From: a virus
Reading direction: 5' to 3' (one strand)
DNA length: 48,009 nt
IMG/VR virus record: IMGVR_UViG_3300050821_003180
Span: 1 to 48,009 of that record
The translations under genes were made by a program, and so were the position numbers. The notes beneath the pieces were generated by a model. It had not been told where the DNA came from, made no database searches, and saw only the letters and a list, made by a program, of their open reading frames with translations. This document shows, piece after piece, positions 13,803 to 39,515 of the stretch (the stretch's first letter is position 1; every line of letters begins with the position of its first letter).

Positions 13803-14126
13803 GTTGACCTCTGAGAGTGGAGTAGTTGAAGAGTGCACTGTTATACTTTTCTACCGTTGCACTAAAGGAAGTATAATCTAAAAATTGGAATTTTAAAAAT
13901 AAACAGGTACGAAAAAGTGGAGAAAGTGAACAGCTTGGAGTAGATTAGTATAAAAGTAAAAATCGTAGATTTTGTAGAAAGGTACCCGGGTACGATTAAA
14001 GGTACCCGTCTGGCTCAGCGCGGGGTGTGTAGGGGGTGCTTACGACAGTCGTCGCTGGGGATGGCGAGCGAGCTTGGCTTGCCGCGCGCCGCTCGAGTGA
14101 GGGCGCGCTGGCTGGGCTCGGCTGGC
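13803..14126. promoter_or_regulatory. Divergent control region between leftward and rightward modules
   Basis: No gene with a ribosome site found in these 324 bases. The left part (13850-13980) is AT-rich and contains TATAAT- and TATAAC-like boxes on both strands without a convincing -35. The middle holds the GGTACC repeats (13978-14008). The right part (14010-14100) is GC-rich. The GT/AC desert begins sharply at about 14100. This is the best place in the window for early and late promoters, and possibly a replication origin or physical end of the genome. Confidence 0.5.
13978..14008. repeat. Paired operator-like repeats around a GTACCCGGGTAC palindrome
   Basis: AAAGGTACCCG occurs at 13978-13988 and 13998-14008, exactly 20 bp apart (about two helical turns). 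The first copy overlaps a 12-bp perfect palindrome (13982-13993). Spacing and symmetry are those of a protein-binding site; the binder is not known. Confidence 0.55.
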
Positions 14127-14330
14127 TTAGCTTGCCTGATCCCTCATCATCCAGCCCACATCGGCTTGGCTAGGGCATCCAGCGGCGCGCCATGCTTGCT
14201 CGGGGCTCAGGCTATCCCAATGCTTCATGAAGGCCGCAAAGCTCTCAGCTGCTTGCGCCTCAAGGGCTGCTTGCTCGCGGCGCGCAATGATGGCGCGAAT
14301 GATCGGGAGGCGGCGCAGGATCGCTTTCAT
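14127..14330 (-). CDS. Small hypothetical protein in the desert, leftward
   Basis: A 67-residue basic helical protein (MKAILRRLPIIRAIIARREQ...). AAGGGG lies seven bases before the ATG at 14330, which decides the start. It contains one Val and no Thr, like its rightward neighbours, though it is read from the other strand. Ends SQADVGWMMRDQAS. No family recognised. It stands alone, leftward, at the left edge of the desert. Confidence 0.55.
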   Translation of the reverse strand: MKAILRRLPIIRAIIARREQAALEAQAAESFAAFMKHWDSLSPEQAWRAAGCPSQADVGWMMRDQAS

Positions 14331-14395
14331 TTCATTCCCCTTATCTATCCGGCCAGCGAAGCGCCAGCCCATGAGAAGAATATTAGATGAGGACG

Positions 14396-14430
14396 ATAGA
14401 CGCGTCTATTAGGGATTACCCTAGTAGACG
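14396..14430. promoter_or_regulatory. Nested palindromes, operator-like
   Basis: ATAGACGCGTCTAT (14396-14409) is a perfect palindrome; overlapping it, CGTCTATTAGGG-ATTA-CCCTAGTAGACG (14403-14430) forms a 12-bp hairpin with one G-T pair. TAGACG or its complement appears three times. Five of the few GT/AC steps in this part of the desert lie in this element, which suggests they are kept for function. An AT-rich tract and the first rightward desert gene follow. Confidence 0.55.
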
Positions 14431-14502
14431 AAAGCAATAATTTTTTATATTCTTCTATTCATGGATGCAGCAAGCCCGCTGCTGATTAATAGGAGAATCA
14501 AA

Positions 14503-14688
14503 ATGCTTCAAGCCTCTTTCCTTTTCATGGATGATTTTGGCAATGCAGAGCGCCCGATTATGCCGGGAAATTTTCTTCTCTCATGCGTCCGCTTCTGGCT
14601 TGATGGAATGATCGAGGGCATTAGCGAAGAATTGCTAGAAGGCCAAGCTGATGATTCATCGCTGCGCTTCTTTGGCCTGATTCAATAA
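14503..14688 (+). CDS. Small acidic hypothetical protein (desert)
   Basis: A 61-residue acidic protein, MLQASFLFMDDFGNAERPIM. An AGGAGAATCAAA leader fixes the start at 14503, not at the ATG further upstream. The same leader occurs before the next gene and, slightly changed, at 18.1 kb. One Val, no Thr. No family recognised. First gene of the rightward early block. Confidence 0.6.
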   Translation: MLQASFLFMDDFGNAERPIMPGNFLLSCVRFWLDGMIEGISEELLEGQADDSSLRFFGLIQ

Positions 14689-14766
14689 TCCCCTCTCAAT
14701 TGGCTTATCGGGCGCGCGGAGCGCCTTAAGCCATTAGAAGGCCCGATTAATTTTAGGAGAATCAAA

Positions 14767-15117
14767 ATGCTCGATATCATCAAGGCTTCATTGGAGCTTT
14801 CCAAAGCTCGCCAATCCATCGCTAGCCGCGCGGATGCAGCTAAAGCAGCCGCCATCAATGAAGGCGCCGAATTGCTAGAGGGCATTTTTGGCCCGAGCTA
14901 TCCGATTAGCGATCTCTGCCAGATGCTGGATTATGGCGGCCCCGATGGGGAACGCGATGATGGGATTCGAGAAATGCAATATGCGCAGATTATAGGATCG
15001 CTTGCACAACTTATGGGCATTGATTTTAATGAATATCTCAGCGAAAGCGGGCTTTGCTTAGCTAATATCCGCCGCTCGCTTTGGGCGGGCAAATTTGATG
15101 CATTCATCTATCAATAA
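14767..15117 (+). CDS. Hypothetical protein without Val or Thr (desert)
   Basis: A 116-residue acidic protein, MLDIIKASLELSKARQSIAS. It has no valine and no threonine, and all 16 codons for Asp, Asn, Tyr and His that could end in T or C end in T. This is the clearest effect of the GT/AC desert on a protein. The AGGAGAATCAAA leader precedes it. No family recognised; the layout is helical and soluble. Confidence 0.65.
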   Translation: MLDIIKASLELSKARQSIASRADAAKAAAINEGAELLEGIFGPSYPISDLCQMLDYGGPDGERDDGIREMQYAQIIGSLAQLMGIDFNEYLSESGLCLANIRRSLWAGKFDAFIYQ

Positions 15118-15132
15118 TCCAAGGGGAATATT

Positions 15133-15375
15133 ATGGCGCATCAATTATTTGATCCGCAGGAAATGCAAGCTATCAGCATTCTGGCCGCAGATAAGAATGT
15201 GCGCCTGAATAAATTTCAATTCGCCAAGCTGATGGCAATCATCGCCATCGATTATTGGAATGAAGCAGAAGCCCATGAGGATGGCGATCCGGCCGATTGC
15301 CCGCTCGCCAAGCGCATCGAAGATTTCGGGATCTATCTAAGCGAAGCCCAATTATTTGTTGAGCGCAAAGGCTAG
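15133..15375 (+). CDS. Hypothetical protein (desert)
   Basis: An 80-residue acidic helical protein, MAHQLFDPQEMQAISILAAD. AAGGGG lies upstream of the ATG. Two Val, no Thr; all NAY codons end in T. It lies 15 bp after the previous gene, so the two are one transcript. No family recognised. Confidence 0.65.
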   Translation: MAHQLFDPQEMQAISILAADKNVRLNKFQFAKLMAIIAIDYWNEAEAHEDGDPADCPLAKRIEDFGIYLSEAQLFVERKG

Positions 15376-15681
15376 TACAATCCTCTGAAGAATAAGCCCG
15401 CTCATAGCAGCGGGCTATCAGCCTTGGCGAGAACATCATTGCCAGCTATTTACCATAATGAAGATTATCACCCGATCCTTATTCCATAAGGCTTTGCGGG
15501 GCGCGGCCCATTTCATGATCTGAAATGCTGCAGTGCAATATGGCACGATGCTTGCTTATGAAAGCTAATTGCAAGCTCTTATGCGGCCTAGCACGCAGAC
15601 TATCATCTAATGAACGCAAATAGCATTTTGGCCTATCATGGAATTGCGCAATCGAGCGCAATCCACTCATAGGAGAAAATT
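15376..15681. other. Non-coding stretch in the desert with a hairpin
   Basis: These 306 bases contain no convincing gene; two 21-codon frames lack ribosome sites. A hairpin AGCCCGCT-CATAGC-AGCGGGCT lies at 15395-15416, without a T-run. The rest shows the same GT/AC depletion although it is non-coding (four-fold or more below normal), which argues against a codon effect. It may hold a small RNA or regulatory site; I see no clear promoter. Confidence 0.5.
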
Positions 15682-15993
15682 ATGGAAGTGCTGAGCTTCA
15701 TAGACGAGAAAGGCGGCAAGCTCTATGCCATCGGGCCATTCCGTGATAAGGCGGATGCCAGCCGCGCAAGCGCTGGGCTAGATCGCATATCCGCTGCGCC
15801 GCGCGATCTGCCCAGCGGAGCGATCACTGGCCGATGCTGGCAGATTTATGATCTGCTGCAAGGCAAGCCGCGCCATGAATTGATCGCAGAAGCCTCGCGG
15901 CAGGGCATCAATGCGGGCACTGCTGCAACGCAATATCAGCGCTGGCGCAAGGCAAGGGGCCTGATCAGGGAGGGGGCAAGCGCAGCAGCCTAG
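15682..15993 (+). CDS. Small protein with 'GTAxTQY..W+KA.GL' domain (paralog 1)
   Basis: A 103-residue protein. Residues 1-45 form a small alpha-beta part (MEVLSFIDEKGGKLYAIGPF). Residues about 50-95 carry a domain that recurs in three other proteins of the window: CWQIYDLLQG, then INAGTAATQYQRWRKARGL. The order of helices and the conserved Thr-Gln-Tyr-x-x-Trp-(Arg/Lys) end suggest a compact helix-turn-helix-like fold. AGGAG precedes the ATG. One Val, three Thr; two of these Thr lie in the conserved motif, so they may be kept for function. Confidence 0.6.
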   Translation: MEVLSFIDEKGGKLYAIGPFRDKADASRASAGLDRISAAPRDLPSGAITGRCWQIYDLLQGKPRHELIAEASRQGINAGTAATQYQRWRKARGLIREGASAAA

Positions 15994-16183
15994 TTCTCGA
16001 AGCGCTTAACTAGGCAAGCTGGGGGAATAAGCGCTTCAAAGAGCTAGTAGTTATCGTCTATCGATAAGCATGAGGATAATACAAATAATCAACTAGACTA
16101 AAAATAGCGCCGCGCCTAATATTCTTATCAAGGGCGCGGCGCAATCCAGCGCAAAGCCCTCCGACCTCTAGGAGATTCAAATC

Positions 16184-16834
16184 ATGGCTTTCGCTTCGAA
16201 TATCCAAGCAATGAATGCAGCCCGCGCCATGCTCAAGGCGCAAGGCATCGCAGCCGCCGCCCTCAAGGAATATTTCTCGATTGAGAAGCACGATGGCGAA
16301 TGGCATGCGATGCATATCCAAGCCTTTCCCGCGCCTCGTGATCCGCTTTCCTGCCTGATCTTAGAGCGCGATGGGGCCATCACATTCCCGCTCGCCTCGG
16401 ATGCCCCTGCAATCGCGCTCACTGCATCCCAAGCAGAATGCGCGGCCTATGATGAATCGGGCGATGAATTCTATGCGCAAGATGAGGCCGAATTCGATGA
16501 AGCGCAGGCCAATCGGCAAAAGGCGGCGGATGCGCTGGCTGATTCGTTGCAGAGCGCAAGCAACTTGCCCAATGGCAAGGAATGGATTCGCATTAGCTCG
16601 GTGGAGAAGCCAACAAAATTTGTCTGGCATGTGGCGGATCGCATGGTGGGCGCTGCGCTCGCCGCTGGCCTCCCCGCCCCCTCGCGCAAAGAGGTGCAGG
16701 ATGAGTGCATTCGCCTCGGCGTAGCATCAGGCACTGCCCGCACCCAATATCAGGCGTGGAAAAAGGCCAACGATGAAACGGCCCTGAACGCACAACGAGC
16801 CGCAGAGCTTTCAAAGCGCTTCAATAAGGCTTAG
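16184..16834 (+). CDS. Hypothetical protein with C-terminal 'TQY..W+KA' domain (paralog 2)
   Basis: A 216-residue protein. The N-terminal part (1-130) has an Ala-rich helix and an acidic middle (DESGDEFYAQDEAEFDEA). The C-terminal part (about 143-200) is a copy of the shared domain: FVWHVADRM, GVASGTARTQYQAWKKAND. GT and AC rise again over this C-terminal domain (about 16.57-16.80 kb), where Val and Thr belong to the conserved pattern. GGAG leads the ATG. Not matched to a named family. Confidence 0.65.
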   Translation: MAFASNIQAMNAARAMLKAQGIAAAALKEYFSIEKHDGEWHAMHIQAFPAPRDPLSCLILERDGAITFPLASDAPAIALTASQAECAAYDESGDEFYAQDEAEFDEAQANRQKAADALADSLQSASNLPNGKEWIRISSVEKPTKFVWHVADRMVGAALAAGLPAPSRKEVQDECIRLGVASGTARTQYQAWKKANDETALNAQRAAELSKRFNKA

Positions 16835-16845
16835 TCTACGTTTCT

Positions 16846-16890
16846 GCCTTATCCTGTTACTGGAACTAATCCATTGTAATAGGATAAGGC
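16846..16890. repeat. 15-bp inverted repeat with 15-nt loop
   Basis: GCCTTATCCTGTTAC (16846-16860) pairs with GTAATAGGATAAGGC (16876-16890), with one G-U pair in RNA. No T-run follows. A related TATCCTA...TAGGATA arrangement stands before the gene at 17225, so this leader structure recurs between small genes and may control translation or processing. Confidence 0.6.
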
Positions 16891-16919
16891 GCATTTAGCC
16901 TATTACTGGAGCTATCCAC

Positions 16920-17186
16920 ATGGATATCGGATCACTCAGCGCGGCCAAGCTGCAAAAGGCCATCGATGCAGCAGATAAGCGTTGCCGTACTTTCGTTGAT
17001 GCGATGATTGATTCAGGGCGCGGCCATGAATTGATGAACGAGACGCGCGCCAATGCAGCAAAAGGCCACGATTCGCTCGCCATCGACTATTGCGATGCTA
17101 TGGATGATAGCGCAGCGCTGGAACGCGAAAAGCAAGCGCGAATCCGCTATCACGGCTCCATGAAGCCAATCAAACGTCAAGCTTAG
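16920..17186 (+). CDS. Small charged hypothetical protein
   Basis: An 88-residue charged helical protein, MDIGSLSAAKLQKAIDAADK. GGAG lies eight bases upstream. No family recognised. It is followed by the repeated leader element of the next gene. Confidence 0.6.
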   Translation: MDIGSLSAAKLQKAIDAADKRCRTFVDAMIDSGRGHELMNETRANAAKGHDSLAIDYCDAMDDSAALEREKQARIRYHGSMKPIKRQA

Positions 17187-17224
17187 CCTAGCACAATTTA
17201 TCCTAGCACTGGGAGTAATAGGAT

Positions 17225-17326
17225 ATGGCACACAAACATCATTCCCCGCTTTTCCTCATCCTAGCCGCCCTCGGGCTGGCTTGGCTTTTTCGCCTGATCT
17301 GGCCTAAGGGCAAGCGCGGGCATTAA
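17225..17326 (+). CDS. 33-residue membrane protein
   Basis: A very short gene: MAHKHHSPLFLILAALGLAW..., with a membrane segment at residues 8-25 and a basic tail (KGKRGH). GGGAG lies about nine bases before the ATG and the leader resembles those of the neighbours. A His-rich N-terminus and a basic C-terminus suggest a single-pass inner-membrane protein. Function unknown. Confidence 0.5.
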   Translation: MAHKHHSPLFLILAALGLAWLFRLIWPKGKRGH

Positions 17327-17341
17327 ATCGGAGCTAGCCAC

Positions 17342-17500
17342 ATGAAGGTCATTTATCGCCAGCGCGAATACGATTATCTGGCTGATGGGATTGGCCCGCG
17401 CAAGGGTTGGATATTTGTGCATTGGAGCTTATGCGATGGCTATCAGCCCGCTAGCCGCTGGGCTTGGCTCCCCGCGCATGATTGCCAGCCGATAGACTAA
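17342..17500 (+). CDS. 52-residue hypothetical protein
   Basis: A short gene, MKVIYRQREYDYLADGIGPR..., rich in Trp and Tyr (GWIFVHWSLCDGY). GGAG lies seven bases before the ATG. The composition fits a small folded beta protein. No family recognised. Confidence 0.5.
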   Translation: MKVIYRQREYDYLADGIGPRKGWIFVHWSLCDGYQPASRWAWLPAHDCQPID

Positions 17501-17540
17501 AACACTATCATCGCCCGCGCGCCTGTAGCTACATTCACAT

Positions 17541-17558
17541 AGCCCTTCGGGGCTCTTT
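17541..17558 (+). terminator. Short hairpin, possible weak terminator
   Basis: AGCCC-TTCG-GGGCT followed by CTTT. The TTCG loop is very stable but the T-run is short. Confidence 0.4.
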
Positions 17559-17622
17559 CGTCTATACTAGATTCATGCCTAGAGCAATTCGGCGCTAGGC
17601 GACCCTTCAGGAGAGATTTAAA

Positions 17623-18018
17623 ATGCAAATCGAAAATCTGGACCGCGATTCCGTTAAGCGCCTCGTTGATCTGCTGAATGCTGATCTGAAGTCCCTTGCA
17701 GAGAAGTATGGGATTGCGCTGCGCATCAATGGCGGCAAGCTCGTTTCCGATGCTGCCTGCACCCTCAATCTTGAGGTGACCAAAGAGGGCACCGGCTCTG
17801 TGCGCTCGCAGCGCTTGGCCGCTGATCTGGAGGCCTATGGCGCGGCCTATCTCCCCGGGATCGATCTCACCAAGCCTATCAAGCATTTCAAGCTCGGGCC
17901 GATGATGATTGTCGGCTTCAATGCCCGCGCGCATAAGACGCCAGTCATTGCAGAGGCGCAAGATGGCAAGCGCTATCGCTTTGAGATCGACCAAATCAAG
18001 CGCCTAGCTGCTACCTGA
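17623..18018 (+). CDS. Hypothetical protein
   Basis: A 131-residue protein, MQIENLDRDSVKRLVDLLNA, with a helical first half and a beta-rich second half (KHFKLGPMMIVGFNAR, then YRFEIDQIKRLA). AGGAGAGAT leads the ATG. Val and Thr return to the sequence here, as GT/AC depletion weakens. No family recognised. Confidence 0.65.
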   Translation: MQIENLDRDSVKRLVDLLNADLKSLAEKYGIALRINGGKLVSDAACTLNLEVTKEGTGSVRSQRLAADLEAYGAAYLPGIDLTKPIKHFKLGPMMIVGFNARAHKTPVIAEAQDGKRYRFEIDQIKRLAAT

Positions 18019-18117
18019 TTTTTTCTATTCAGCATTCTATTCAGACCGCGGGGTTTGGCTAGCACCAGCCCCTTCTCATCACTCATCACTCATCGACTAA
18101 TTTTAGGAGAATTCCAA

Positions 18118-18423
18118 ATGCAAGCAATCATCACCAAATATTTCAGCCCCACCAATTCTAAGCCTGCCCGTATCAAAGCCTCATGCCCTGCCGGGACGAT
18201 CTACGCCGCATTCGATCATGGTCTATCGGATCGGGATAATCATGCCGTCGCTGCAATGACGCTCGTCCGCAAGCTGGGGTGGCATCCACAAGCCACTGAA
18301 AAGAACCTCTATGATGCCTTATGGGCTTGTGGAGAAATCACAGGAGGTTATGCATTCGCTATGCACAATTTCGATTCATTCAGCTACGCTTTTCGTGCGC
18401 CCGCCAATTGGCCAAAGCGCTAA
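18118..18423 (+). CDS. Small phage protein, common type of unknown function
   Basis: A 101-residue protein. The AGGAGAATTCCAA leader fixes the start at 18118; an open frame from 18055 is just leader. The beginning MQAIITKYFSPTNSKPARIK matches a common small phage protein in which a TK[FY]..PT...G.RIKA phrase is followed by a helix with NHAVAAMTLV. Function not known. It overlaps the end of the opposing VRR-NUC gene by 4 bp. Confidence 0.7.
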   Translation: MQAIITKYFSPTNSKPARIKASCPAGTIYAAFDHGLSDRDNHAVAAMTLVRKLGWHPQATEKNLYDALWACGEITGGYAFAMHNFDSFSYAFRAPANWPKR

Positions 18424-19001
18424 GGCAACACCCACTCTTTCGAATGCTCAAAGCCCAAGTACCACATCAGGGCTTTGAGCGCCGCATGCCAGCTATCAAA
18501 TACCGCGTATAGATAGCCACGCTTGGCTAGGTACGCGCCGTAGCGCTTTTGGTCATCACTCTCCCCTTTGAGCTTTCCCGGCGCTTTCATTTCGATGTAG
18601 AAACCATGATAGCCATGCGCTGCATAGGGCAGGCAGGTATCACTCACTCCCGGCTTCGCTCCCTCTGCTTTCATATTCGCCCCGGCTATCATCGCTGAAC
18701 GCTTATCGCTCCCTCTCGTTCCCCCATTCGGAATCGCATGGAACCACTCGAGCGCTTCTGCGATATCTACCAATCGCTGGCCCGCATCGAACATGACCTG
18801 AGCATCAACGATCGGGCTCTTACCATTCTTTTCCCACCATTCCAGCAGATTATTGGGGAACAGACTTCCTAGCTGCAAATCCTCCCCCTCTTTGCGAAAT
18901 GAGAACGCATACTGAGCCACCGCTGCAAACAACGCCACCTGCTGCGAATGCTCGCTAGCCCCCGCAAACTTACCCGGATCACCAATCACTTCTTCACCCA
19001 T
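18420..19001 (-). CDS. VRR-NUC domain nuclease
   Basis: A 193-residue protein; GGAGGTGG before the ATG at 19001 decides the start over the one six codons earlier. The C-terminal half carries the VRR-NUC signature: GTRGSDKRSAMIAGANMK, KPGVSDTCLPY, GFYIEMKAPGK (the catalytic D...ExK core of PD-(D/E)XK enzymes) and RGYLYAVFDSWHAALKALM. The N-terminal helical part (about 20-95) is an extra domain. VRR-NUC nucleases act on branched DNA in replication or recombination. It is the last gene of the leftward regulator-primase operon. Confidence 0.85.
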   Translation of the reverse strand: MGEEVIGDPGKFAGASEHSQQVALFAAVAQYAFSFRKEGEDLQLGSLFPNNLLEWWEKNGKSPIVDAQVMFDAGQRLVDIAEALEWFHAIPNGGTRGSDKRSAMIAGANMKAEGAKPGVSDTCLPYAAHGYHGFYIEMKAPGKLKGESDDQKRYGAYLAKRGYLYAVFDSWHAALKALMWYLGFEHSKEWVLP

Positions 19002-19135
19002 TTTTCCACCTCCAATCATTTTTAAAAATTTCGCTCCGCAAATTGCCGCATATTTCGAATTTTAGATTCGAAATGCTATGCGAGGGCGCGCAGGAAAAAG
19101 CGGGAAAACTCAGCCACAAGCCTTATTCACCAAGG

Positions 19136-19173
19136 GCGGGAAAAAGGAAAAAATATAATTTCCCGCATTTTTT
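19136..19173 (+). terminator. Possible rightward terminator
   Basis: GCGGGAAA, a 15-nt loop, TTTCCCGC, then ATTTTTT. It lies in the gap between the primase-helicase and VRR-NUC genes, both leftward, so it would stop antisense transcription. A perfect TTTCGAA/TTCGAAA inverted repeat is at 19053-19073 in the same gap. Confidence 0.45.
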
Positions 19174-19220
19174 CAACCTTTCATTTTGCCTAATTTCCCT
19201 CACCAGCAATTTTTTCCCGT

Positions 19221-21455
19221 CTATCCCATAGCCCATACCCACTGAATCCACTTCCCCGAATTTTCCTCATTCTTACTTCCCAATTTTCCCGCATCCACCA
19301 TATCCTTTAACACTTTCTTTAGATCGCGCTTAAGCTGGGTCGGGTCACCTGCGTCGGGTCGCGCACGCATTGCTTCTTCAACTACCGCGTCCGCAGGGGA
19401 GCAAGGTATTCCAGGTGGAGCGCCATGGCTACCCACATTATGATTACCTGCCTTGGCACAGTCATTGACGATTGCGTCCAAGATGGCCCGCTGGTTCTTA
19501 CCGCCACCCATCGGCGCTTGCCGACTTCCAGCCTGCTTTTTGCTGCGTGCGCCACCAAATGGGGGTCGGGTCGATTGATGGCTATTACTAGCACTATAAT
19601 CATAAGTCGGCGTGTTGCTCGCAATTGGTGCCACGGGGCTGTTGACCATTTCGCGTTCAGGCTGGATATAGCAACTAGACAACTGGGTGCCGAAATTATC
19701 GAATCTATCGAGCATGACTTTCGATAGCTCGAAATTATGGAATCCTTTGTCGTCCCCCTCTTTGACTTTATTGGCGCGCACAAAGCGTTGATAGCCAATA
19801 ACGCGGTCCTCATTATCAGGATCGGTGATCGCCAGCTTAGCCACTTCAAAGACGCCCTCGATACCAGCTTGAAGTGATCCGCTCCCACGCATGCTACCTG
19901 CAATGCCGGTTTTGGGGTCGGGTTTCGTCGAATGGTGAACAATCACGACGCACGCATTAAGCTGTTCTTTCAGTAGTTCTAGCGCCTCGACTGCTTTACC
20001 CATATCCGTCGCGCTATTCTCATCCGAGCCAACGATTGCTTTAGCGAAAGTGTCGATGATTATCATACCGCCCGTCCAGCCGCTTTGCTTGCGTGCCAGA
20101 ATGAAGTCGGTAATTAATTCAATATCAGTGAGCTTGAATCGACCGCGATAGAATTCCACATTCTCCGGGTAATCATGGCCGTTGCCTTTCTCGAATGCGC
20201 CAAGGCGTTGATTAAGCGCGTTGCCGCCCTCAATAGCCACATAAAGCACTGGCATCTGGAGCGTCTTGTATCCGAACCATTCCACCCCATCGGCTACCGC
20301 TGCTGCCATGTCGAGCGCAATAAATGATTTGCCGACGCCGGACCACCCATATATGGCATTCACCGCATGCGATTGGAATAGGTCTTGGACCGCCCATTCA
20401 ATCGCGGGCTCTTGAAGTACCTCTTTGGCCGTCTTGGTATTGAATCTATTCGACGCTGGCACTGGAGCCACGGCGCTATTAGCTATGGACGCACTTTGCG
20501 CAGGTGCCGCAGCCTGTAGCTTGTCAGCCAGCATTTTATCAGCCGCGCCACGAAAATCGTAGTCTTTGCTCCGCTTCTCATCCATCGCAACGCGCGCCTT
20601 GGCTGATATCAAGGTGCGGTGTACATATTGGCGCGAGTCTGACTTGCGGCCTAGTAACTGTGCACGCGGGCAATGCAGGAACATGCGCACCGCGGATTCA
20701 TCCGGGTACTTTCGATTGCGCGTAAATTTAACGAACAGCTGCATTACTTTGAGGTCGATCTGGCTTCGATCGTCTCCCGGGGTGTCGTTCATCCATCCAT
20801 CGATGGTCGCGCGATTGGCCCATCCATCCGTCCATTCTGCGAATTTGTTGTCCAGCGCTAGTTCTTCAGCGCTCGCATTATTCACTTGCTCGGGATCGAG
20901 CTTAGAGTCTGCGAACTGGGCGTCATCCACCGAGCGGGGATATTTCGCTACCAGATAATCGAGCCAGCCTTGTTGTTTGCTGATCTCGTTAGTAGCGCTT
21001 TCCATCCTACCGGTGATGACAACGAAACCCTTGTTGCCATAGCACTCAATGCCCGCGGTTTGAGCATTGAAGTCGTTAGGCAGCTTGCCCTCTACAATAA
21101 TGTGGGCACCTTTGCCACTCAGGCTGCGCTCGACATAGGTCGTACCTATCGCTGCATTGTACAGACCAATCTTGATATCATTTGCATCAACATCGTAGAC
21201 CTTGGTGTCTTTCCAGTCTAGATCAATGATGCTGAACGGATCGTCGGGCAATGGGACGTAGCCCATGTACATACCCAACTCCATCGCCCAAAAGCGTGCT
21301 TGCTCATACTCCATCCATTGTGATGGATTGTTCTTTGCCCCCGGATAGGTCGACTCATTTGCAAAATCAACGGCTTGCGGTGCCTTATCTGGCCCAGCAA
21401 GCATCCATTGCTTTCGTCCCCGCATTGCATGGGGAATATTGTCTAGGTATCCCAT
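19221..21455 (-). CDS. Primase-helicase (prim-pol plus RepA-type helicase)
   Basis: A 744-residue replication protein. The N-terminus (about 1-170) resembles primase-polymerase domains: DDPFSIIDLDWKD has the metal-binding Asp pair near 78-83 and RSLSGKGAHIIVEG (110-123) is the matching downstream motif. The C-terminal half is a RecA-fold helicase: Walker A GWSGVGKS (370-377), Walker B MIIIDTF (464-470) and the VIVHHSTKP sensor (504-512). The last 130 residues are disordered, then form a winged-helix-like end. It would load at the origin, unwind DNA and make primers. It is 4 bp from the Cro-like gene upstream, so both are one operon. Confidence 0.85.
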   Translation of the reverse strand: MGYLDNIPHAMRGRKQWMLAGPDKAPQAVDFANESTYPGAKNNPSQWMEYEQARFWAMELGMYMGYVPLPDDPFSIIDLDWKDTKVYDVDANDIKIGLYNAAIGTTYVERSLSGKGAHIIVEGKLPNDFNAQTAGIECYGNKGFVVITGRMESATNEISKQQGWLDYLVAKYPRSVDDAQFADSKLDPEQVNNASAEELALDNKFAEWTDGWANRATIDGWMNDTPGDDRSQIDLKVMQLFVKFTRNRKYPDESAVRMFLHCPRAQLLGRKSDSRQYVHRTLISAKARVAMDEKRSKDYDFRGAADKMLADKLQAAAPAQSASIANSAVAPVPASNRFNTKTAKEVLQEPAIEWAVQDLFQSHAVNAIYGWSGVGKSFIALDMAAAVADGVEWFGYKTLQMPVLYVAIEGGNALNQRLGAFEKGNGHDYPENVEFYRGRFKLTDIELITDFILARKQSGWTGGMIIIDTFAKAIVGSDENSATDMGKAVEALELLKEQLNACVVIVHHSTKPDPKTGIAGSMRGSGSLQAGIEGVFEVAKLAITDPDNEDRVIGYQRFVRANKVKEGDDKGFHNFELSKVMLDRFDNFGTQLSSCYIQPEREMVNSPVAPIASNTPTYDYSASNSHQSTRPPFGGARSKKQAGSRQAPMGGGKNQRAILDAIVNDCAKAGNHNVGSHGAPPGIPCSPADAVVEEAMRARPDAGDPTQLKRDLKKVLKDMVDAGKLGSKNEENSGKWIQWVWAMG

Positions 21456-22716: not shown

Positions 22717-22907
22717 GCGATATCGACGGCAAAGCGAAGCGTATGTACTGGGTGAGCGCCTACAAGGACCGCCAGCACTTGCAGTTGACGCTCTTTCATT
22801 ATTCAGTAGAGGAATTGGTTGAACTGCTGGAATGTACGGGCTTTACCAACGTGCTTGCTATTCCCGCTGGCCCCATTAGCCATCGGCACATCGAAAACCT
22901 CGACTAG
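22713..22907 (+). CDS. Small hypothetical protein (GTG start)
   Basis: A 64-residue protein starting at GTG (22713), which overlaps the stop of the previous gene. Contains RMYWVSAYKDRQHLQLTLFH. Small alpha-beta protein, no family recognised. Start supported by the 4-bp overlap. Confidence 0.6.
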   Translation: MSDIDGKAKRMYWVSAYKDRQHLQLTLFHYSVEELVELLECTGFTNVLAIPAGPISHRHIENLD

Positions 22908-23043
22908 ATTTTAGGTGCGAGATTAGCTGTAGAGACTTAAAATAGATTCATGGAGTCAGGGCTAGCATCTAAAGATGGATGCGCTGAATACAGAGGCGAG
23001 CTAGACAGACTCCTCCCTTTTACGACCTTTCAGGAGATTTATC

Positions 23044-23337
23044 ATGACCGACTTCAAGAAAGCTGTGCTCACTGGTGCAATTCTTGGCCTTTCGCTGGGC
23101 CTTATTGCTAATTATGCGCACGCCTCTGTCGCTAGGGGTGATTCGGGCCACCACGGCTATGGCGCAGGCGTATCCGGCTCTCTGAAGGGCGCGGCAAGCT
23201 CCAATAATGCCAGCGCTGGGGCGGCTGGGCAGAGCGGCCAAGGGGGCGCTTATTTCGCCCCTGACTTGCATAGCTCGCTGATCGATGGCTATCAGCCGTG
23301 GCCCGAGGCCGAAATGAAGCAGTTCCAGAAGAACTAG
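23044..23337 (+). CDS. Exported Gly/Ser-rich protein
   Basis: A 97-residue protein with an N-terminal signal peptide (KKAVLTGAILGLSLGLIANYAHA, cleavage likely after AHA, residue 27) and a Gly/Ser/Ala-rich mature part (GAGVSGSLKGAASSNNASAG). Suggests a small periplasmic or envelope protein made early in infection. AGGAG leads the ATG. Role unknown. Confidence 0.65.
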   Translation: MTDFKKAVLTGAILGLSLGLIANYAHASVARGDSGHHGYGAGVSGSLKGAASSNNASAGAAGQSGQGGAYFAPDLHSSLIDGYQPWPEAEMKQFQKN

Positions 23338-23338
23338 C

Positions 23339-23497
23339 ATGGACAATCGGCTCCGCGCTCAGTTCGATCCGTTCTTGGAGCGGGATAAACGAGCAACTGA
23401 ATTGAAGCGCCTACTCTCACTGGCCCGTGCTGCTCGTAATAAGCCTGAAATCAGGCGACTGGAAAAGATGCTTAAGTGGTGGGGAATTCCTGTTTAA
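23339..23497 (+). CDS. 52-residue basic hypothetical protein
   Basis: MDNRLRAQFDPFLERDKRAT..., very basic, helical, rich in Arg and Lys, ending MLKWWGIPV. It starts 1 bp after the previous gene, so it is read by coupling. It may bind nucleic acid; not recognised. Confidence 0.5.
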   Translation: MDNRLRAQFDPFLERDKRATELKRLLSLARAARNKPEIRRLEKMLKWWGIPV

Positions 23498-24272: not shown

Positions 24273-24466
24273 GTTATCAAGGCAAGGATGCTGCGCGCTT
24301 CTCTCGCGCGCAGTGGCTGCAAAGATTCGAGACGGAGTGCATTCGGCTCCGTCCGACTATCCGGGGTCGGGTCGATTGGAACACGGCCCACTTCTACTAC
24401 AACAAGGGCTACACGCCGAAAGCAGCAGCCGACGCGTGGCTCAATCATAAACTCGTCGAGGCTTGA
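24269..24466 (+). CDS. Small hypothetical protein
   Basis: A 65-residue basic protein, MSYQGKDAARFSRAQWLQRF, with aromatic residues in NTAHFYYNKGYTPKAAADAW. 4-bp overlap with the DUF2786 gene. No family recognised. Confidence 0.65.
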   Translation: MSYQGKDAARFSRAQWLQRFETECIRLRPTIRGRVDWNTAHFYYNKGYTPKAAADAWLNHKLVEA

Positions 24467-31958: not shown

Positions 31959-32642
31959 GTGCTGATTCTGATTGACAAAACGAACTTGCGAATGGTAGCG
32001 GCTGCGGCGACTCGCAAGTGGATCAACTTAGTTTCATATGTGGATTATCCCGACATAGATGTGGTCATCGTCGATTCGCTGGAAGGCATGACTTGGTCGG
32101 TACTCGACAAGCCGCAGATGGCAACGCTTTATACCAATATGAGCGGCCAGCCTGCGCCTGAGTACGGCGAGTGCATCACGCAACTCCGTTCCTACTCGGA
32201 AAGCTGGCCGAACTATCCGAAGACCGAGGCCGAACTCGAACGTGAGGCTGAGGCAATCTACGCCGAGGAACAGGCCGGAGTGTTTGATAATCCGCATGAT
32301 CCGCACTTGCACCCGGAGAACGTAGTACAACGGCAGGCTCATCAGGCGGCTATTCAAGCCGCTGAAGCTGCGCATGTGAGCCCGAGCCCTGCTGAGCCTT
32401 CAGAGGCCAGCCAACCCGCTCCTACCAAGCCCAAGGCAGAAGCGAAGGCTGAGCCTGCGCCGCGCCAAGGCATCACCAAGAAGATTTGGGAAATTGCTGA
32501 CGATCTGCTGGCGGTGACTGGCTCGGTCGGCAACATTAAAGAGTTCCGCAAAACCGTTATTTCGCGGGCTGCGGCTATCGGCGCGAATGAAGGTACTGCG
32601 GCGACGCAATTTGGGAAGTGGAAAGCAAGCAAGGGGCTATGA
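31959..32642 (+). CDS. Protein with C-terminal 'GTAxTQ..WK' domain (paralog 3)
   Basis: A 227-residue protein starting at GTG (AGGAGATAAAC upstream). The N-terminal part (1-75) is a small alpha-beta domain (MLILIDKTNLRMVAAAATRK). A Glu/Ala/Pro-rich linker follows (about 75-165). The C-terminal domain (about 170-227) is the shared domain: KIWEIADDLLAVTGSVGNIK...IGANEGTAATQFGKWKASKGL. This domain is probably a small DNA-binding fold (see findings). Confidence 0.65.
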   Translation: MLILIDKTNLRMVAAAATRKWINLVSYVDYPDIDVVIVDSLEGMTWSVLDKPQMATLYTNMSGQPAPEYGECITQLRSYSESWPNYPKTEAELEREAEAIYAEEQAGVFDNPHDPHLHPENVVQRQAHQAAIQAAEAAHVSPSPAEPSEASQPAPTKPKAEAKAEPAPRQGITKKIWEIADDLLAVTGSVGNIKEFRKTVISRAAAIGANEGTAATQFGKWKASKGL

Positions 32643-33731: not shown

Positions 33732-34268
33732 ATGTCCGAGAATACCGCCGCTGAAAATACCGAAGCGCAAGCAGCCGCAGCGCCGACCGAAGTTGCTGTG
33801 AAACCGAAGAAGGAAAAGAAGGCCAAGGAACCCAAGGCCGCGAAAGAGCCGAAAGCGGAAAAGGCACCGGTCGTCAAGCCTGCCAAGGACGTGAAGAACG
33901 GCGTCAACCGTCCGTCGACGGGCGTGACTAAAGCGGTGTGGGATATGGCGGACTCCCTCAGTTCCAAGGCACCGACCGAACGCGCTCCGCTGGTCGAGGC
34001 CCTGAAGGGCAAAGTCGAAGTCGGCACGATCCATACACAGTACGGCCGGTGGCGCAAGTACTACGGTCTGACCGAGACCAAGGAACAGCGCCAAGCTCGC
34101 CTCCAGGTCGCACGCGACAAGAAGGATGCGGCGAAGAAGGCCGAAAAGGCGATCAAGGACCAGAAGAAGGCCGACGACGCGGCGGCAAAAGCCGCAGCCA
34201 AGGCCAAGGCGGCACCGGCAGCAGCCGCAGCCGAGCAGCAATCGGCAGAAGCAGCAGCGACGGCGTAA
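33732..34268 (+). CDS. Histone-like protein with central 'TQYGRWRKY' domain (paralog 4)
   Basis: A 178-residue protein. N-terminal tail (1-60) is Lys/Ala/Pro-rich (KPKKEKKAKEPKAAKEPKAE), the centre (about 62-115) is the shared domain (AVWDMADSL...VGTIHTQYGRWRKYYGL), and the C-terminal tail (115-178) is again Lys/Ala-rich (KKAEKAIKDQKKADDAAAK). The tails resemble histone H1 and bacterial H1-like proteins, so non-specific DNA binding is likely, maybe DNA compaction or coating of unmodified DNA. AAGG eight bases upstream supports the start. No such protein is known to me in this exact form. Confidence 0.65.
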   Translation: MSENTAAENTEAQAAAAPTEVAVKPKKEKKAKEPKAAKEPKAEKAPVVKPAKDVKNGVNRPSTGVTKAVWDMADSLSSKAPTERAPLVEALKGKVEVGTIHTQYGRWRKYYGLTETKEQRQARLQVARDKKDAAKKAEKAIKDQKKADDAAAKAAAKAKAAPAAAAAEQQSAEAAATA

Positions 34269-34551: not shown

Positions 34552-35307
34552 ATGATTCCCGTAAATTTTCAACAGCCGACCAAGGCTGATCGGAGCGATG
34601 ATGGATCGCTACTCGTTCATTCCGTTTTCTGGACGATTCAGGGCGAAGGCCCGAACGTCGGAAAGCGCGCCGTCTTCTTGCGACTCGCAGGATGCAATCT
34701 CCAATGCCCCGGCTGTGATACCGAGTATACCAGTGGAGCCGAGCGACTTACAGTCGACGAGATTGTGCAGCGAGTCCGAATCGCTCATATGTGCCATACT
34801 TCAGAGCCTTGTCTGGTAGTCATTACCGGCGGTGAGCCATTTCGGCAGTTCTTGCCACCATTGATCAACAAGTTGATTGGCGAGCGCTACTCGGTGCAGA
34901 TCGAGACAAATGGGACGCTCGGGCTGAGTATGAGTCATTTGATCCGCGAGGCCATCATCAGGTTAGAAATCGTGTGCAGTCCGAAAGCGGGCAAAGTGCA
35001 CGAGAGCTTGCATGATTTCATCACCGCATACAAATATGTGGTCAATCATGATGATATCGACGAAGCAGATGGCCTCCCTCTTTCAGTCCTTGGTATGCCC
35101 GCGCGACCAGCCCGTCCGCATGCGGGATTCGAAGGGACCGTTTACGTTCAGCCAGCCGAGGAATACTTCGGGGACAAAGGCTGGGAAAACAAGCTGATAA
35201 CGCGCACCCATCAAAGCGGCTTGAACTTGAAAGCCGCTATCGACTCCGTTATGCGCTTCGGATATGTTCTGTGCCTGCAAACTCATAAAATTGCTGGGTT
35301 AGAATAA
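34552..35307 (+). CDS. queE: QueE, 7-carboxy-7-deazaguanine synthase
   Basis: A 251-residue radical-SAM enzyme. It makes 7-carboxy-7-deazaguanine from 6-carboxy-tetrahydropterin. The Fe-S motif is CNLQCPGC (residues 44-51, CxxxCxxC), preceded by TIQGEGPNVGKRAVFLRLAG, and ITGGEP (about 91-96) is the SAM-binding GGEP motif. It is the first of the deazaguanine genes. A weak AGG lies upstream. Length is normal for the family. Confidence 0.88.
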   Translation: MIPVNFQQPTKADRSDDGSLLVHSVFWTIQGEGPNVGKRAVFLRLAGCNLQCPGCDTEYTSGAERLTVDEIVQRVRIAHMCHTSEPCLVVITGGEPFRQFLPPLINKLIGERYSVQIETNGTLGLSMSHLIREAIIRLEIVCSPKAGKVHESLHDFITAYKYVVNHDDIDEADGLPLSVLGMPARPARPHAGFEGTVYVQPAEEYFGDKGWENKLITRTHQSGLNLKAAIDSVMRFGYVLCLQTHKIAGLE

Positions 35308-35366: not shown

Positions 35367-36107
35367 ATGAGAGCAGTTGTATGTTTGAGCGGCGGTCAGG
35401 ATTCGACCACCATCCTCGGTAAGGCATTGCACGACGGCTTCGAATGCTTTGCCATCGGCTTCGATTATGGCCAGCGCCATAGGATCGAGTTAGAGCAGGC
35501 TGCGAAGATCGCAGCGGCCCTCAACGTGCCTTATCAGGTCTTGGATATCAAGAGCTTTGGCAAGCTCGTCACGAGCGCTCTGGCGCGGCAAGAGGGCACG
35601 TTCGGCGTTCCCCATGAGCGCATGGCCAGCGTTCCGAGTTCATTCGTTCCGAATCGCAACGCGGTCATCCTGACGCTTGCGCATGCCTATACGCAGGAAG
35701 TCGGTGCAGAAGTTGTATTCGGCGGCATGTGCGAAACGGACTACAGCGGCTACCCGGATTGCCGCGAAGTGTTCATCAACTCGCTCGAAAACGCCCTGAA
35801 CATCGGCTACCTGACCAAGATCAAGTTCATCACGCCGCTGATGCATCTGAACAAAGCGGCGACGTTCAAGATGGCCGAGGAATGCGGCGTTCTCGATCTC
35901 GTAATCGAGGAATCGCATACCTGCTACAACGGCGTGCGGAATGATAAGGCCGATGATACGGGTCGGGGATTCGTTTCGGTTCCCAGGTTCGAATGGGGGC
36001 ATGGCTGTGGCGAATGCCCCGCCTGCGAGTTGCGCGCCAAGGGCTGGGATGAATACAAAGCGATGGAACATATCGCAGAAGGCCGCGTTACGGGGACTGT
36101 CGAATAA
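35367..36107 (+). CDS. queC: QueC, 7-cyano-7-deazaguanine (preQ0) synthase
   Basis: A 246-residue ATP-dependent enzyme that turns carboxy-deazaguanine plus ammonia into preQ0. SGGQDSTT (residues 8-15) is the PP-loop, DYGQRH (34-39) the second motif, FVPNRNAVIL the third, and CETDYSGYPDCREVF the substrate site. The zinc site is formed by HTC (near 187) and CGECPACELRAKG. AGGAG leads the ATG; it overlaps queD by one base. Complete, all motifs present. Confidence 0.92.
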   Translation: MRAVVCLSGGQDSTTILGKALHDGFECFAIGFDYGQRHRIELEQAAKIAAALNVPYQVLDIKSFGKLVTSALARQEGTFGVPHERMASVPSSFVPNRNAVILTLAHAYTQEVGAEVVFGGMCETDYSGYPDCREVFINSLENALNIGYLTKIKFITPLMHLNKAATFKMAEECGVLDLVIEESHTCYNGVRNDKADDTGRGFVSVPRFEWGHGCGECPACELRAKGWDEYKAMEHIAEGRVTGTVE

Positions 36108-36565
36108 TGGCCTACCGCTCGACCAAACGGTACGGGCATGACCTTGGGCTGAGCGCTTGCTTTCGCCAGCCCAAGGCGACCCACTCCCATTGCTCCCGGT
36201 TGCACGGCTACGCATTGGCGTTCACTTTCACGTTCGAAGCGGACGAGCTTGACGAACGCAACTGGGTTGCTGATTTCGGGGCGTTCAAGTGGCTGAAAGA
36301 TGCGTTGCAATATCATTTCGACCATAAGCTGCTAGTCGATGCTAATGATCCTCAGATCGACGAGATTGGCCAGCTTGGCGCGCTAGGCATCGCTGATATT
36401 ATTGTTCTGCCCGGTGGGGTCGGTTGCGAAAAGTTCGCCAAGCTCGCATTCGATCTTGCCGTGCGCTGCTTGGAGCGCGATGCGAACCTAGCGCCGCGCG
36501 TCCGCGTAATCTCCTGCGAATGCGCCGAGCATGGCGCGAACTCTGCAATCTACTCAATCGAATAA
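36107..36565 (+). CDS. queD: QueD-type 6-carboxy-tetrahydropterin synthase
   Basis: A 152-residue pterin synthase-family enzyme that makes 6-carboxy-tetrahydropterin from dihydroneopterin triphosphate. The motif SHCSRLHGYALAF (about 27-39) has the catalytic Cys and the HG of the zinc site, but reads HGY where standard QueD has HGH. WVADFGAFKWLK, YHFDHKLL and the end ECAEHGANSAIY fit the HGY subfamily known from proteobacteria and phages, so the change is a subfamily trait, not decay. TAATG coupling to queC. Confidence 0.85.
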   Translation: MAYRSTKRYGHDLGLSACFRQPKATHSHCSRLHGYALAFTFTFEADELDERNWVADFGAFKWLKDALQYHFDHKLLVDANDPQIDEIGQLGALGIADIIVLPGGVGCEKFAKLAFDLAVRCLERDANLAPRVRVISCECAEHGANSAIYSIE

Positions 36566-36566
36566 C

Positions 36567-37418
36567 ATGAGCTATTCCAAAGAAGAACTCTTGAATCAGC
36601 AAATGCAGGCTGAGATTGCCCGTCATCAAGACGGGCTCTTTGATGCCGACGAGGGCACGCGCCTTGTTCCGCATCAATGCGCCAAGTGCGGCACCGGCTA
36701 TGCGACGCCGGAGTGCCTCAAGCCTGCATTTATGGCCGATCTGAAAACCGATCCGAAGCTACTTGACGATCTGATGAGCGCTCGACCGGGTGGCATCGTT
36801 CGGGTCGGGCCGAAGTCTACTGAAGAATTTGCGCGAATGGACGTAGAGCAAGCCACGATAAACAGGCAATATGCGGACGAATTGATTGTGCGCCAGCTGT
36901 TGCGAAATATCATCGGCGAAAAAGAACGCGAAGGGTTGGCCGAGACCCCGAAGCGCGTCGTCAAGGCTTGGAAGCACTGGACCGGCGGCTATCATGTCGA
37001 TATCGCTGGATTGCTCAAAACGTTTGGGGACGGAGCCGAGGGCTACGATGAAATGGTCGTCCGTAAGAACATTCGCATTTATTCTCATTGCGAGCACCAC
37101 CTTGCTCCTATTATCGGAGATTGCACGATTGCTTACATTCCGAGCGGCCGTGTTGTGGGTCTATCTAAACTTGATAGGCTCGCTGATGCTTTTGCTCGTC
37201 GGCTGCAAGTACAAGAACGTCTCACTAATCAGATTGCTGATGCGCTCATGGAACATTTGCAGCCGAAAGGAGTAGGTGTCCACATTAATGCGCGCCATAT
37301 GTGCATCGAATCACGCGGAGTCGCCCAGCATTCATCGGATACTATTACATCGGCCCTACGCGGCGTAATGAAGGATCAACCGGAGACTCGTGCCGAATTC
37401 ATGGCGCTGGTGAAATAA
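36567..37418 (+). CDS. folE: FolE, GTP cyclohydrolase I with N-terminal extension
   Basis: A 283-residue enzyme; it makes dihydroneopterin triphosphate from GTP, the entry into the pathway. The FolE domain starts about residue 100 (YADELIVRQLLRNIIGEKER) and has the zinc/active-site motifs SHCEHHLAPI, YIPSGRVVGLSKLDRL and ARHMCIESRGV. About 95 extra N-terminal residues precede it, with VPHQCAKCGTGYATPEC, a possible small zinc finger; normal FolE is near 190-220. The start at 36567 follows queD by 1 bp. Confidence 0.9.
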   Translation: MSYSKEELLNQQMQAEIARHQDGLFDADEGTRLVPHQCAKCGTGYATPECLKPAFMADLKTDPKLLDDLMSARPGGIVRVGPKSTEEFARMDVEQATINRQYADELIVRQLLRNIIGEKEREGLAETPKRVVKAWKHWTGGYHVDIAGLLKTFGDGAEGYDEMVVRKNIRIYSHCEHHLAPIIGDCTIAYIPSGRVVGLSKLDRLADAFARRLQVQERLTNQIADALMEHLQPKGVGVHINARHMCIESRGVAQHSSDTITSALRGVMKDQPETRAEFMALVK

Positions 37419-38019: not shown

Positions 38020-38601
38020 GTGAATATTCGAGATTTCAAGGTAATGCTGCGTGAAATGGACCCGGCTGAAATGGCGGTTCATTCGATCCGCGATCATCAT
38101 GTCGAGGGGATAGATTATCTTTGCCTGCATCGCAGCGACAAGCTGACGGTCAAGCTCTATTTCATCGATCCTACCGCGATTGATATCGAGCCGGGTAAGT
38201 TCCTCGTCACGCCGCATACGCATCGATACAACTTCGAAAGCACTGTTCTCAAGGGGACATTGCGGCACGTGCGCTTTGAGGAAGTTCGCGGTACAGCATA
38301 TGAAGTATCTACCTATTCGCCGGAAACTCGCTCCCGCGAAAGCAGGGGCGATGCTAATCTGGTTCCATCCACAGAAGTCTATTCTGCTGGGGGCCATTAT
38401 TGGAACTCCGTGCTAGATATCCATACGCTGATAGTGCCCGCGGTGCCGGTCTTACTTGGCTTGGTCCAGTATTCGGACGTATGGCCGCGCTCGACGGTTT
38501 ATGTGCGAAAAGGCCATGAAATGAAGTTCCCGGAATCATCGACGATGACCGCAGATGAGGCCGCAAGACTGCGCGAACGTGCTTTGTCGATGCTCTCATG
38601 A
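38020..38601 (+). CDS. Cupin-like protein in the deazaguanine cluster
   Basis: A 193-residue protein, GTG start with AGGAGACCGAC upstream. PGKFLVTPHTHRYNFESTVL (about 58-77) fits the cupin metal motif G(x)5-6HxH(x)4E, and VYSAGGHYWNSVLDIHTL (about 118-135) supplies a further His. A metal-dependent oxygenase or isomerase-type role is possible. It overlaps dpdA by 4 bp, so it is in the same operon and may act on the base before or after transfer. This is inference. Confidence 0.6.
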   Translation: MNIRDFKVMLREMDPAEMAVHSIRDHHVEGIDYLCLHRSDKLTVKLYFIDPTAIDIEPGKFLVTPHTHRYNFESTVLKGTLRHVRFEEVRGTAYEVSTYSPETRSRESRGDANLVPSTEVYSAGGHYWNSVLDIHTLIVPAVPVLLGLVQYSDVWPRSTVYVRKGHEMKFPESSTMTADEAARLRERALSMLS

Positions 38602-39515
38602 ATCTATATATAGCGGGAATTTTCACGGCCAACTTCGAAAGGGGCGGCAATGGATGGGCCAAACTGGATGAGCGCGAGAAACAAGGACATGCAAGTGTTG
38701 AGAACTTCCTTGAGTCCTACCACTATATTGGGCATGGACGTTATAGTCAACGAATACGTGAAAACGGGCAGTGCGTTTTTCTTGACTCCGGGGCATTCTC
38801 CGCTTTCAGCTTGGGAGTTGAAGTTGATCTACCCGCATATTGCCGATGGATCAAAGAAAACATCGATATCGTCAGAGTCGAGGACGGTAGTCTCATGGCA
38901 TCCGTCCTCGACGGTATTGGAGACCCGCTTAAAACGTACCAAAATCAATGCGCAATGGAGCAATTCGGCGTCCGACCGTTGCCCTGCTTTCACTATGGCG
39001 AAGACGAAAGATATCTCGAATACTACATCGCCAACTACGAGTATATCACGATCGGAGGCATGGTCCCGATTTCGACGCCGCAACTCTTTCATTGGCTCGA
39101 CCGAATCTGGAATAAGTACCTCACTGACGGAAGCGGTAGGGCTCGCATTAAAGTACATGGGTTCGGATTGACTTCGATGGACCTGATGAAAGCGTACCCC
39201 TGGTATTCAGTCGATTCGAGCAGTTGGGTACAAATCGGTGCGCACGGCAACATCATGATGGAGGGCAAGACGCTAGGTTTCTCTAGCCAGTCGCCCAGCC
39301 GAAAGACCGTCAATCAACATATCGACTCGATGGCACCGATCATGCGCGAGGCAATCGAGCAAAAGCTGACTGGAATGGGGTATGATCCTGATAGACTCCG
39401 CGAGATTCAATACTCGCGCTGGGCCTTTAATGCCGAACAGTTCGCCAATATGGGCCGCGATCTGAAGGCGCAAGGGATCAAATTTGACCATCAACAACCG
39501 GAGCTGTTCTCGTGA
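38598..39515 (+). CDS. dpdA: DpdA, TGT-like DNA 7-deazaguanine transglycosylase
   Basis: A 305-residue protein of the tRNA-guanine transglycosylase fold, DpdA type. FLDSGAFSAF (residues 61-70) contains the first catalytic Asp (D63), TIGGMVP (151-157) and KVHGFGLTS (185-193) are the family loops, and YPWYSVDSSSW (200-210) gives the second Asp (D206). The enzyme exchanges guanine in DNA for preQ0. It is coupled by ATGA to the cupin gene and follows folE, queC, queD, queE, so the full set for preQ0-modified DNA is present. No known amidotransferase to convert preQ0 further was seen. Confidence 0.85.
   Translation: MNLYIAGIFTANFERGGNGWAKLDEREKQGHASVENFLESYHYIGHGRYSQRIRENGQCVFLDSGAFSAFSLGVEVDLPAYCRWIKENIDIVRVEDGSLMASVLDGIGDPLKTYQNQCAMEQFGVRPLPCFHYGEDERYLEYYIANYEYITIGGMVPISTPQLFHWLDRIWNKYLTDGSGRARIKVHGFGLTSMDLMKAYPWYSVDSSSWVQIGAHGNIMMEGKTLGFSSQSPSRKTVNQHIDSMAPIMREAIEQKLTGMGYDPDRLREIQYSRWAFNAEQFANMGRDLKAQGIKFDHQQPELFS

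Follow-up and report, generated by a model that had tools for sequence, protein, structure and literature searches.

A regional GT/AC desert in a phage with a DpdA cassette, and a depleted word that follows the DpdA type across phages

In Escherichia phages 9g and CAjan, a gene set consisting of FolE, QueD, QueE, QueC and DpdA has been described for 7-deazaguanine modification of DNA, with up to 27% of the deoxyguanosine (dG) replaced in 9g (available sections of PMC6884629), and the CAjan DpdA modifies GA and GGC (cited in the available sections of PMC8306585). A regional absence of the target word is not mentioned in these sections of the two papers, and keyword searches were likewise empty. 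Motif depletion in phages has been studied for CRISPR protospacer-adjacent motifs (PMC4246573, in part). Here, we analysed 48,009 nucleotides of viral DNA (IMG/VR record IMGVR_UViG_3300050821_003180; hereafter the window) that carry the same FolE, QueD, QueE, QueC and DpdA cassette and contain a GT/AC desert, a desert being a local depletion of one dinucleotide. The window differs from 9g and CAjan in its virion genes, which are unlike those of Queuovirinae, and in its DpdA target, which appears to be GT instead of GA. We consider it likely that the desert reflects avoidance of the phage's own DpdA target within an early control zone.

Within 14101-15720 (1620 bases), GT occurs 8 times and AC 18 times, the two vanishing together because they are one word read on opposite strands. 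Mononucleotide shuffling of this stretch (2000 shuffles) gave 202.2 ± 11.5 GT+AC with a minimum of 167, compared to the 26 observed, and the comparison stretch 24001-24300 has 24 GT+AC in 300 bases. These numbers reproduce exactly the counts of a first-pass annotation of the same DNA. After correction for base composition, the observed/expected ratio (O/E) of GT/AC was 0.14 over 14101-16500, whereas in 2400-bp windows outside 14.0-19.3 kb it was never below 0.65 (mean 0.78, standard deviation 0.065); the avoidance is thus regional, not genome-wide. GT/AC was the only depleted class among the ten strand-symmetrised dinucleotide classes. All NGT and GTN contexts were reduced to 0.13-0.24 of background without flanking preference, and a motif longer than GT was ruled out since the four NGT and GTN contexts were about equally depleted. 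The left edge is abrupt and the right side graded, as first described, with both strands and non-coding DNA affected; the right end, originally placed at about 18.4 kb, was refined, as an O/E of about 0.3-0.6 persists from the end of the core to about 19.2 kb. A second, weak dip (22.9-23.4 kb) adjoins the start of the rightward gene block leading to the replication and que/dpdA genes.

The depletion acts at the DNA level. The four small proteins encoded at 14127-15375 (324 residues) contain 4 Val and no Thr, again as first counted, while 36.9 Val+Thr were expected (binomial P 1e-12). Their open reading frames (ORFs) hold 7 GT+AC, whereas the same amino acids written with the codon usage of the genome would carry 66.5 ± 5.9; the amino acid effect is therefore not the cause of the desert. 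In addition, non-coding desert DNA has 24 GT+AC compared to 85 expected. These results uphold the first-pass view that the effect acts on the DNA and covers non-coding sequence as well. If early mRNAs avoided GU instead, owing to the action of an RNase or a transglycosylase on RNA, early genes should lose GT most on their RNA-like strand, and there GT is in fact depleted more, and further, than AC. However, the core is equally empty on both strands and in non-coding DNA, and a GA desert of phage JenP1 includes 829 bp without annotated genes that are low on both strands, and we regard selection on RNA as highly unlikely.

Inside the window desert, GC is increased 1.45-fold and AT 1.37-fold in place of GT/AC; in pooled desert cores the increases are 1.53-fold and 1.42-fold, so that GT is replaced about equally by the two. 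The replacement consists mainly of transitions (GT to AT or GC) and the strand asymmetry resembles that of transcription-linked mutation, both of which speak for a local mutational process in which modified G or a transcription-linked event erodes GT in early DNA without selection. However, G and T were changed equally often, which does not point to one lesion, and only one zone is affected, though modification should be genome-wide. Furthermore, GT/AC is retained at constrained sites, namely the region of a palindrome at 14410, where several of the scarce GT/AC remaining in the core are grouped, and a conserved Thr of a helix-turn-helix (HTH)-like domain; and the cost in amino acids (no Thr, few Val) is one that selection normally opposes. 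Erosion by mutation is accordingly very unlikely, and the even split of the replacements between GC and AT, like the depletion in every flanking context, is what selection against the word would give and speaks against decay of modified G.

Judging from its gene content, the window phage probably modifies G in its own DNA. The DpdA homologue aligns over its full length with nine phage DpdAs, with 50% identity to CAjan-type enzymes and up to 84% inside its own clade. In the QueC-like protein no amidotransferase part was seen, the match being confined to the QueC half of the family profile; because it spans only that half, dPreQ0 would be the likeliest modification product by the logic of PMC6884629 (available sections). 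A phage tRNA-Gln (TTG) gene lies at 34300-34375, just upstream of queE. The phage, represented by a metagenome contig, is distant from isolated ones: blastn of the window DNA against isolated phages gave no match, and the identity of its terminase to those of isolated phages does not exceed 43%. Its head and packaging block (terminase, portal, scaffold and major head protein) is on the minus strand.

To compare phages, we applied one common statistic to 48 genomes that carry the pathway and to a small control set of 14 sequences that lack it, namely T7, lambda, four further phage genomes and eight contig pieces. The statistic was the worst 800-bp window under a Poisson model corrected for local base composition and for the genome-wide level, and a desert was called strong at a log10 P (logP) of -6 or below. 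The controls never fell below -4.4, so none of them, T7 and lambda included, has a desert. In the 48 genomes, strong deserts among the ten classes tested affected G-containing words exclusively. GT deserts below -6 were found in the window, in five relatives identified by their terminase (G002, G003, G005, G008 and G011), in BcepGomr, ART and G023, and, smaller, in S0112; GA deserts below -6 in G017, S0112 and JenP1; AG deserts below -6 in M39, G029 and G017; and GC and CG deserts below -6 in G017. At 20.0-22.3 kb of S0112 (MK675901) a GA desert lies directly beside a separate GT dip (logP -7.0), and positions 12500-13400 of L161 (about 23.5-24.4 kb of G017) include 0.8 kb nearly free of GA, TC and GC (logP -34 and -16), which encode an HTH-domain protein rich in Val and Thr. 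The AG deserts of M39 (PQ900653; 15.2-16.5 kb) and G029 (40.2-41.0 kb, the latter together with CG) suggest a type of DpdA that recognises the base preceding G. Three other minima were set aside: a GG minimum of 9g (52.8 kb, below -6) falls in coding sequence that is repetitive and rich in Ala and Ser, probably that of a tail fibre, and the GA minima of R7M and PaMx25, in or beside genes for single-stranded DNA-binding proteins, were taken as noise.

A tree of 46 DpdAs united the eight phages that have a GT desert and a DpdA in exactly one clade (support 99/91), which has no member without the desert; this clade takes in the siphophage-type isolates BcepGomr and ART. Two AG-desert phages, M39 and G029, were in another clade (96/83). 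The DpdA of the window and that of CAjan belong to different clades, and the desert word of the former, an indirect sign, points to GT. These results demonstrate that the depleted word follows the DpdA type across phages, which favours one of the guesses of the first-pass annotation, the context of the phage's own DpdA. For another, protection of the DNA that enters first, there was no evidence of a physical end at the desert, and the deserts of JenP1 and BcepGomr are internal to their deposited records. A further guess, a host restriction target, fared badly, as the equivalent region is emptied of different words in different phages (GT, GA, AG or GA+GC). Early regions of other phages are known to lack restriction sites, a precedent for a leading genome end kept clear of a target of host restriction or another defence independently of the phage's own modification, and the sharp edge beside the terminase-proximal block would suit it. 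However, the word is only 2 bp long with no preferred flank, to our knowledge no restriction site is that short, the word changes with the enzyme type, and T7 and lambda have no such desert; this explanation is most improbable.

A desert is retained at the homologous place in all five relatives, strong in G002, G003, G008 and G011 and weak in G005, where the packaging genes give way to those for resolvase and primase and with its sharp edge facing the packaging side. Neither outcome that the first-pass annotation named as counting against the desert, an O/E within the range of other windows or loss of the signal in relatives, was observed. FolE, QueD, QueE, QueC and DpdA are also present in G002, G003, G005 and G011; the G008 contig starts within a polymerase gene and so is without the dpdA part. 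The sequence TAGGG-N4-CCCTA is found at the start of the desert once in G002, once in G003, twice in G008 and also in G011, and a looser match occurs elsewhere once each in G008 and G011. Strand-specific depletion parallels the direction of early genes in G008, G011 and BcepGomr. Over several kb of rightward early genes, at 38.6-42.0 kb in G008 and at 35.6-39.0 kb in G011, the coding strand has half the usual GT and normal AC. G002 and G003 have terminal repeats of the circular assembly type (114/123 bp).

The CAjan/9g clade provides a calibration. In all four phages examined (JenP1, 9g, CAjan and yong3), the genome-wide minimum of GA/TC among 1-kb windows lies at the divergent early boundary, between a leftward early operon and rightward genes; about 1,100-1,240 windows were ranked per genome. 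The GA desert of JenP1 (55.1-56.1 kb) reached a logP of -12.9. Furthermore, 26.3% of G precede A in 9g, close to the reported dG replacement; in the window, 17% of G precede T. In JenP1 (NC_029028), the 829 bp without annotated genes lie at 55522-56351, at the divergent boundary, and are GA/TC-poor on both strands; the homologous stretch of 9g has a modest GA/TC dip. GGC was considered as a second desert word after a positive first scan of yong3 and dropped, as blind ranking was unsupportive (TGA/GA lowest).

The desert of the window also holds genes for a recurrent HTH-like domain of roughly 50 residues with three predicted helices (predicted local distance difference test score, pLDDT, >90 over about residues 50-90). 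Most Dpd phages examined have two to five copies of it; it was not found in JenP1 and 9g, nor in any of four control phage genomes searched (BcepNazgul, G007, G009 and G010). Homologues of the protein encoded at 16184..16834 sit in the deserts of G002, G003, G005, G008, G011 and BcepGomr. One copy lies in or beside the desert in GT phages (beside it in G023) and likewise at the GA desert of S0112, the AG desert of G029 and the GA+GC desert of G017. In GT phages, Val+Thr account for 48 of 513 residues in desert copies compared to 100 of 625 in copies elsewhere (Fisher P 0.001). The G017 desert copy (57 amino acids) has no Asp/Glu, no Ala and 18 Val+Thr, and the three other G017 copies have 6-8 Asp/Glu and 4-9 Ala. 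The domain had no significant match in Pfam or PDB, the best Foldseek hits being Lrp/AsnC-type regulators (E about 0.5); possibly it regulates the modification system or is a partner in it.

The features of the window are listed in Table 1. The desert ORFs are small and of early type and have no Pfam matches, and sigma-70 promoter predictions were not above those in shuffled sequence. Just left of the desert edge, the intergenic stretch 13840-14100 is GT-rich and has direct repeats with AAAGGTACCCG, and the desert of G003 is likewise preceded by a similar GGTACCCGG stretch.

Table 1. Features of the window in and around the GT/AC desert and in the modification cassette
Feature	Coordinates	Strand	Remarks
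Core GT/AC desert	14100..16500	both strands	O/E 0.03-0.3
Graded desert part	16500..18560	.	O/E about 0.3-0.6, GT below AC
Strand-specific tail	18560..19210	+	GT 3 of 30 (0.10 of expectation), AC 31 of 51 (0.61)
Second weak dip	22900..23450	+	GT 0.39, AC 0.62
Small ORF, leftward	14127..14330	-	67 amino acids; Val 1, Thr 0
Divergent control region inside desert	14373..14502	.	Holds 6 of the few retained GT/AC (14393-14428)
Palindrome TAGGGATTACCCTA (TAGGG-N4-CCCTA)	14410..14423	.	Single copy in the window genome
Small ORF	14503..14688	+	61 amino acids (longer start 14461); Val 1, Thr 0
Small ORF	14767..15117	+	116 amino acids; Val 0, Thr 0
Small ORF	15133..15375	+	80 amino acids; Val 2, Thr 0
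HTH-like-domain protein	15682..15993	+	WxIAD...RKxV...GTAxTQYxxW; recurrent domain, three predicted helices
Second HTH-like-domain protein	16184..16834	+	Same domain as 15682..15993
Small ORF, graded part	16920..17186	+	
Small ORF, graded part	17623..18018	+	131 amino acids
Small ORF	18055..18423	+	Last rightward gene ahead of convergent block
Resolvase-like nuclease	18420..19019	-	phrog_824; weak phrog_5702, Holliday junction resolvase
Primase-helicase	19221..21455	-	Outside desert
HTH-domain paralogue	31959..32642	+	phrog_7864; outside desert, near que genes
HTH-domain paralogue	33732..34268	+	phrog_18634; outside desert
QueE-like radical S-adenosylmethionine enzyme	34552..35307	+	preQ0 pathway
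QueC-like protein	35367..36107	+	Profile positions 147-357 of 418 matched
QueD-like protein	36107..36565	+	
FolE-like GTP cyclohydrolase	36531..37418	+	
DpdA, DNA 7-deazaguanine transglycosylase homologue	38598..39515	+	phrog_887, E 7e-73

The position of the desert might suggest a replication origin or packaging start that is kept unmodified for the binding of an initiator or terminase, transcription not being the point. In the window the desert falls between the terminase genes and the primase gene, in BcepGomr it is close to primase/resolvase genes, and the conserved palindrome is within it. However, a graded coding stretch of 2.4-5 kb far exceeds an initiator or pac site, strand-specific depletion tracks the direction of early genes in the two relatives and BcepGomr noted above, and none of the cumulative GC-skew minima coincides with the desert edge. 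An origin at the desert, sought by GC skew, was thus rejected, and an origin or packaging start is on the whole an unlikely cause.

We slightly favour the general view that phages with sequence-specific DNA hypermodification maintain a modification-free control island by emptying kilobases of the target dinucleotide of their own enzyme, with an HTH-like-domain gene inside, from which infection would start on otherwise modified DNA, and that the desert word reveals the DpdA target. For the window itself, in the reading held likely above, FolE, QueD, QueE and QueC would make preQ0, and DpdA, by homology, would insert 7-deazaguanine into DNA, the clade of the window enzyme acting on the G of 5′-GT-3′. 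Bacterial tRNA transglycosylase reads U-G-U, and a GT target would fit this enzyme family. Selection would have removed the target dinucleotide from the divergent promoter/operator region, with its palindrome, and from the first small early genes, so that this zone would enter the next cell unmodified. The likely reason is that a bulky change in the major groove and the loss of N7 would hinder the host RNA polymerase, regulators or replication initiator that act first, and the gradient in the desert would arise because the need for unmodified DNA fades with distance. The absence of modification in the zone and its benefit are presumed, and why the phage would gain from it is less certain than the avoidance itself.

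A different benefit is conceivable from the same avoidance of the phage's own DpdA target: the zone could stay unmodified so that no host nuclease of the modification-dependent (type IV-like) kind attacks it before the phage has expressed counter-defence genes, the gain being escape from defence and not access for host proteins. The link to the DpdA type would be the same, the desert genes are small, early-type and without Pfam matches, and type IV enzymes that cut modified phage DNA, such as BrxU, exist (available sections of PMC12409352). However, the remaining genome is full of the target, so protection would need to take effect in the first minutes after entry; in addition, the operator is inside the desert, and the JenP1 and BcepGomr deserts are internal to their deposited records, at control or replication-flank regions. 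Evasion of a nuclease therefore seems improbable as the reason.

Several points weigh against avoidance of the phage's own DpdA target. That GT is the target, for the window phage and its clade, is inferred. No GT, GA or AG desert at a logP of -6 or below was found in 34 of the 48 Dpd genomes, so a desert is not obligatory. The eight GT-clade cases are not independent, as replication genes are shared by descent; those of BcepGomr and ART are related to the window's, and module descent contributes to the GT-clade pattern. No dpdA is visible in G017 because the contig stops directly behind queE, the second (GT) dip of S0112 is unexplained, and GGC, the second CAjan target, showed no specific depletion at the boundary in yong3 or in CAjan. 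Furthermore, outside the core it is chiefly the RNA-like strand of early genes that avoids GT. A block of RNA polymerase on the template strand was rejected as the sole cause, since the asymmetry in early genes runs opposite; one might speculate that it stems from interactions between RNA polymerase and the non-template strand, or from a DpdA that prefers single strands opened by transcription.

Among the phages of the GT clade, Burkholderia phage BcepGomr and Achromobacter phage ART share with the window a 65% identical DpdA and a GT desert with a homologous HTH-domain gene (BcepGomr desert 48.9-50.1 kb, gp65 48.4-49.0 kb; ART desert 75.3-76.3 kb), but their deserts are shallower (O/E about 0.3-0.45) and contain no TAGGG-N4-CCCTA. 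Early regions enter the cell first in other phages, by first-step transfer in T5 and at the leading end in T7, and early genes under a special DNA-level constraint are common to these phages and the window; T7 differs in that its scan shows no dinucleotide desert. As in restriction-site avoidance, a short word is selected against at the DNA level, but here the avoidance is regional, concerns a non-palindromic word of 2 bp, is linked to the phage's own enzyme and removes amino acids. No description of regional deserts of this kind was found in the literature searched, which did not extend to the main CAjan mapping paper. If this reading is true, host machinery does not tolerate heavily modified phage DNA uniformly, and phages purge the target word locally, strongly enough to strip amino acids from proteins. 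The specificity of uncharacterised DpdAs could then be predicted from sequence alone, with GT, AG and GA+GC predicted here, and in uncultured phages deserts would show where the early control regions lie. It would also become possible to test directly how the cell first reads a modified genome.

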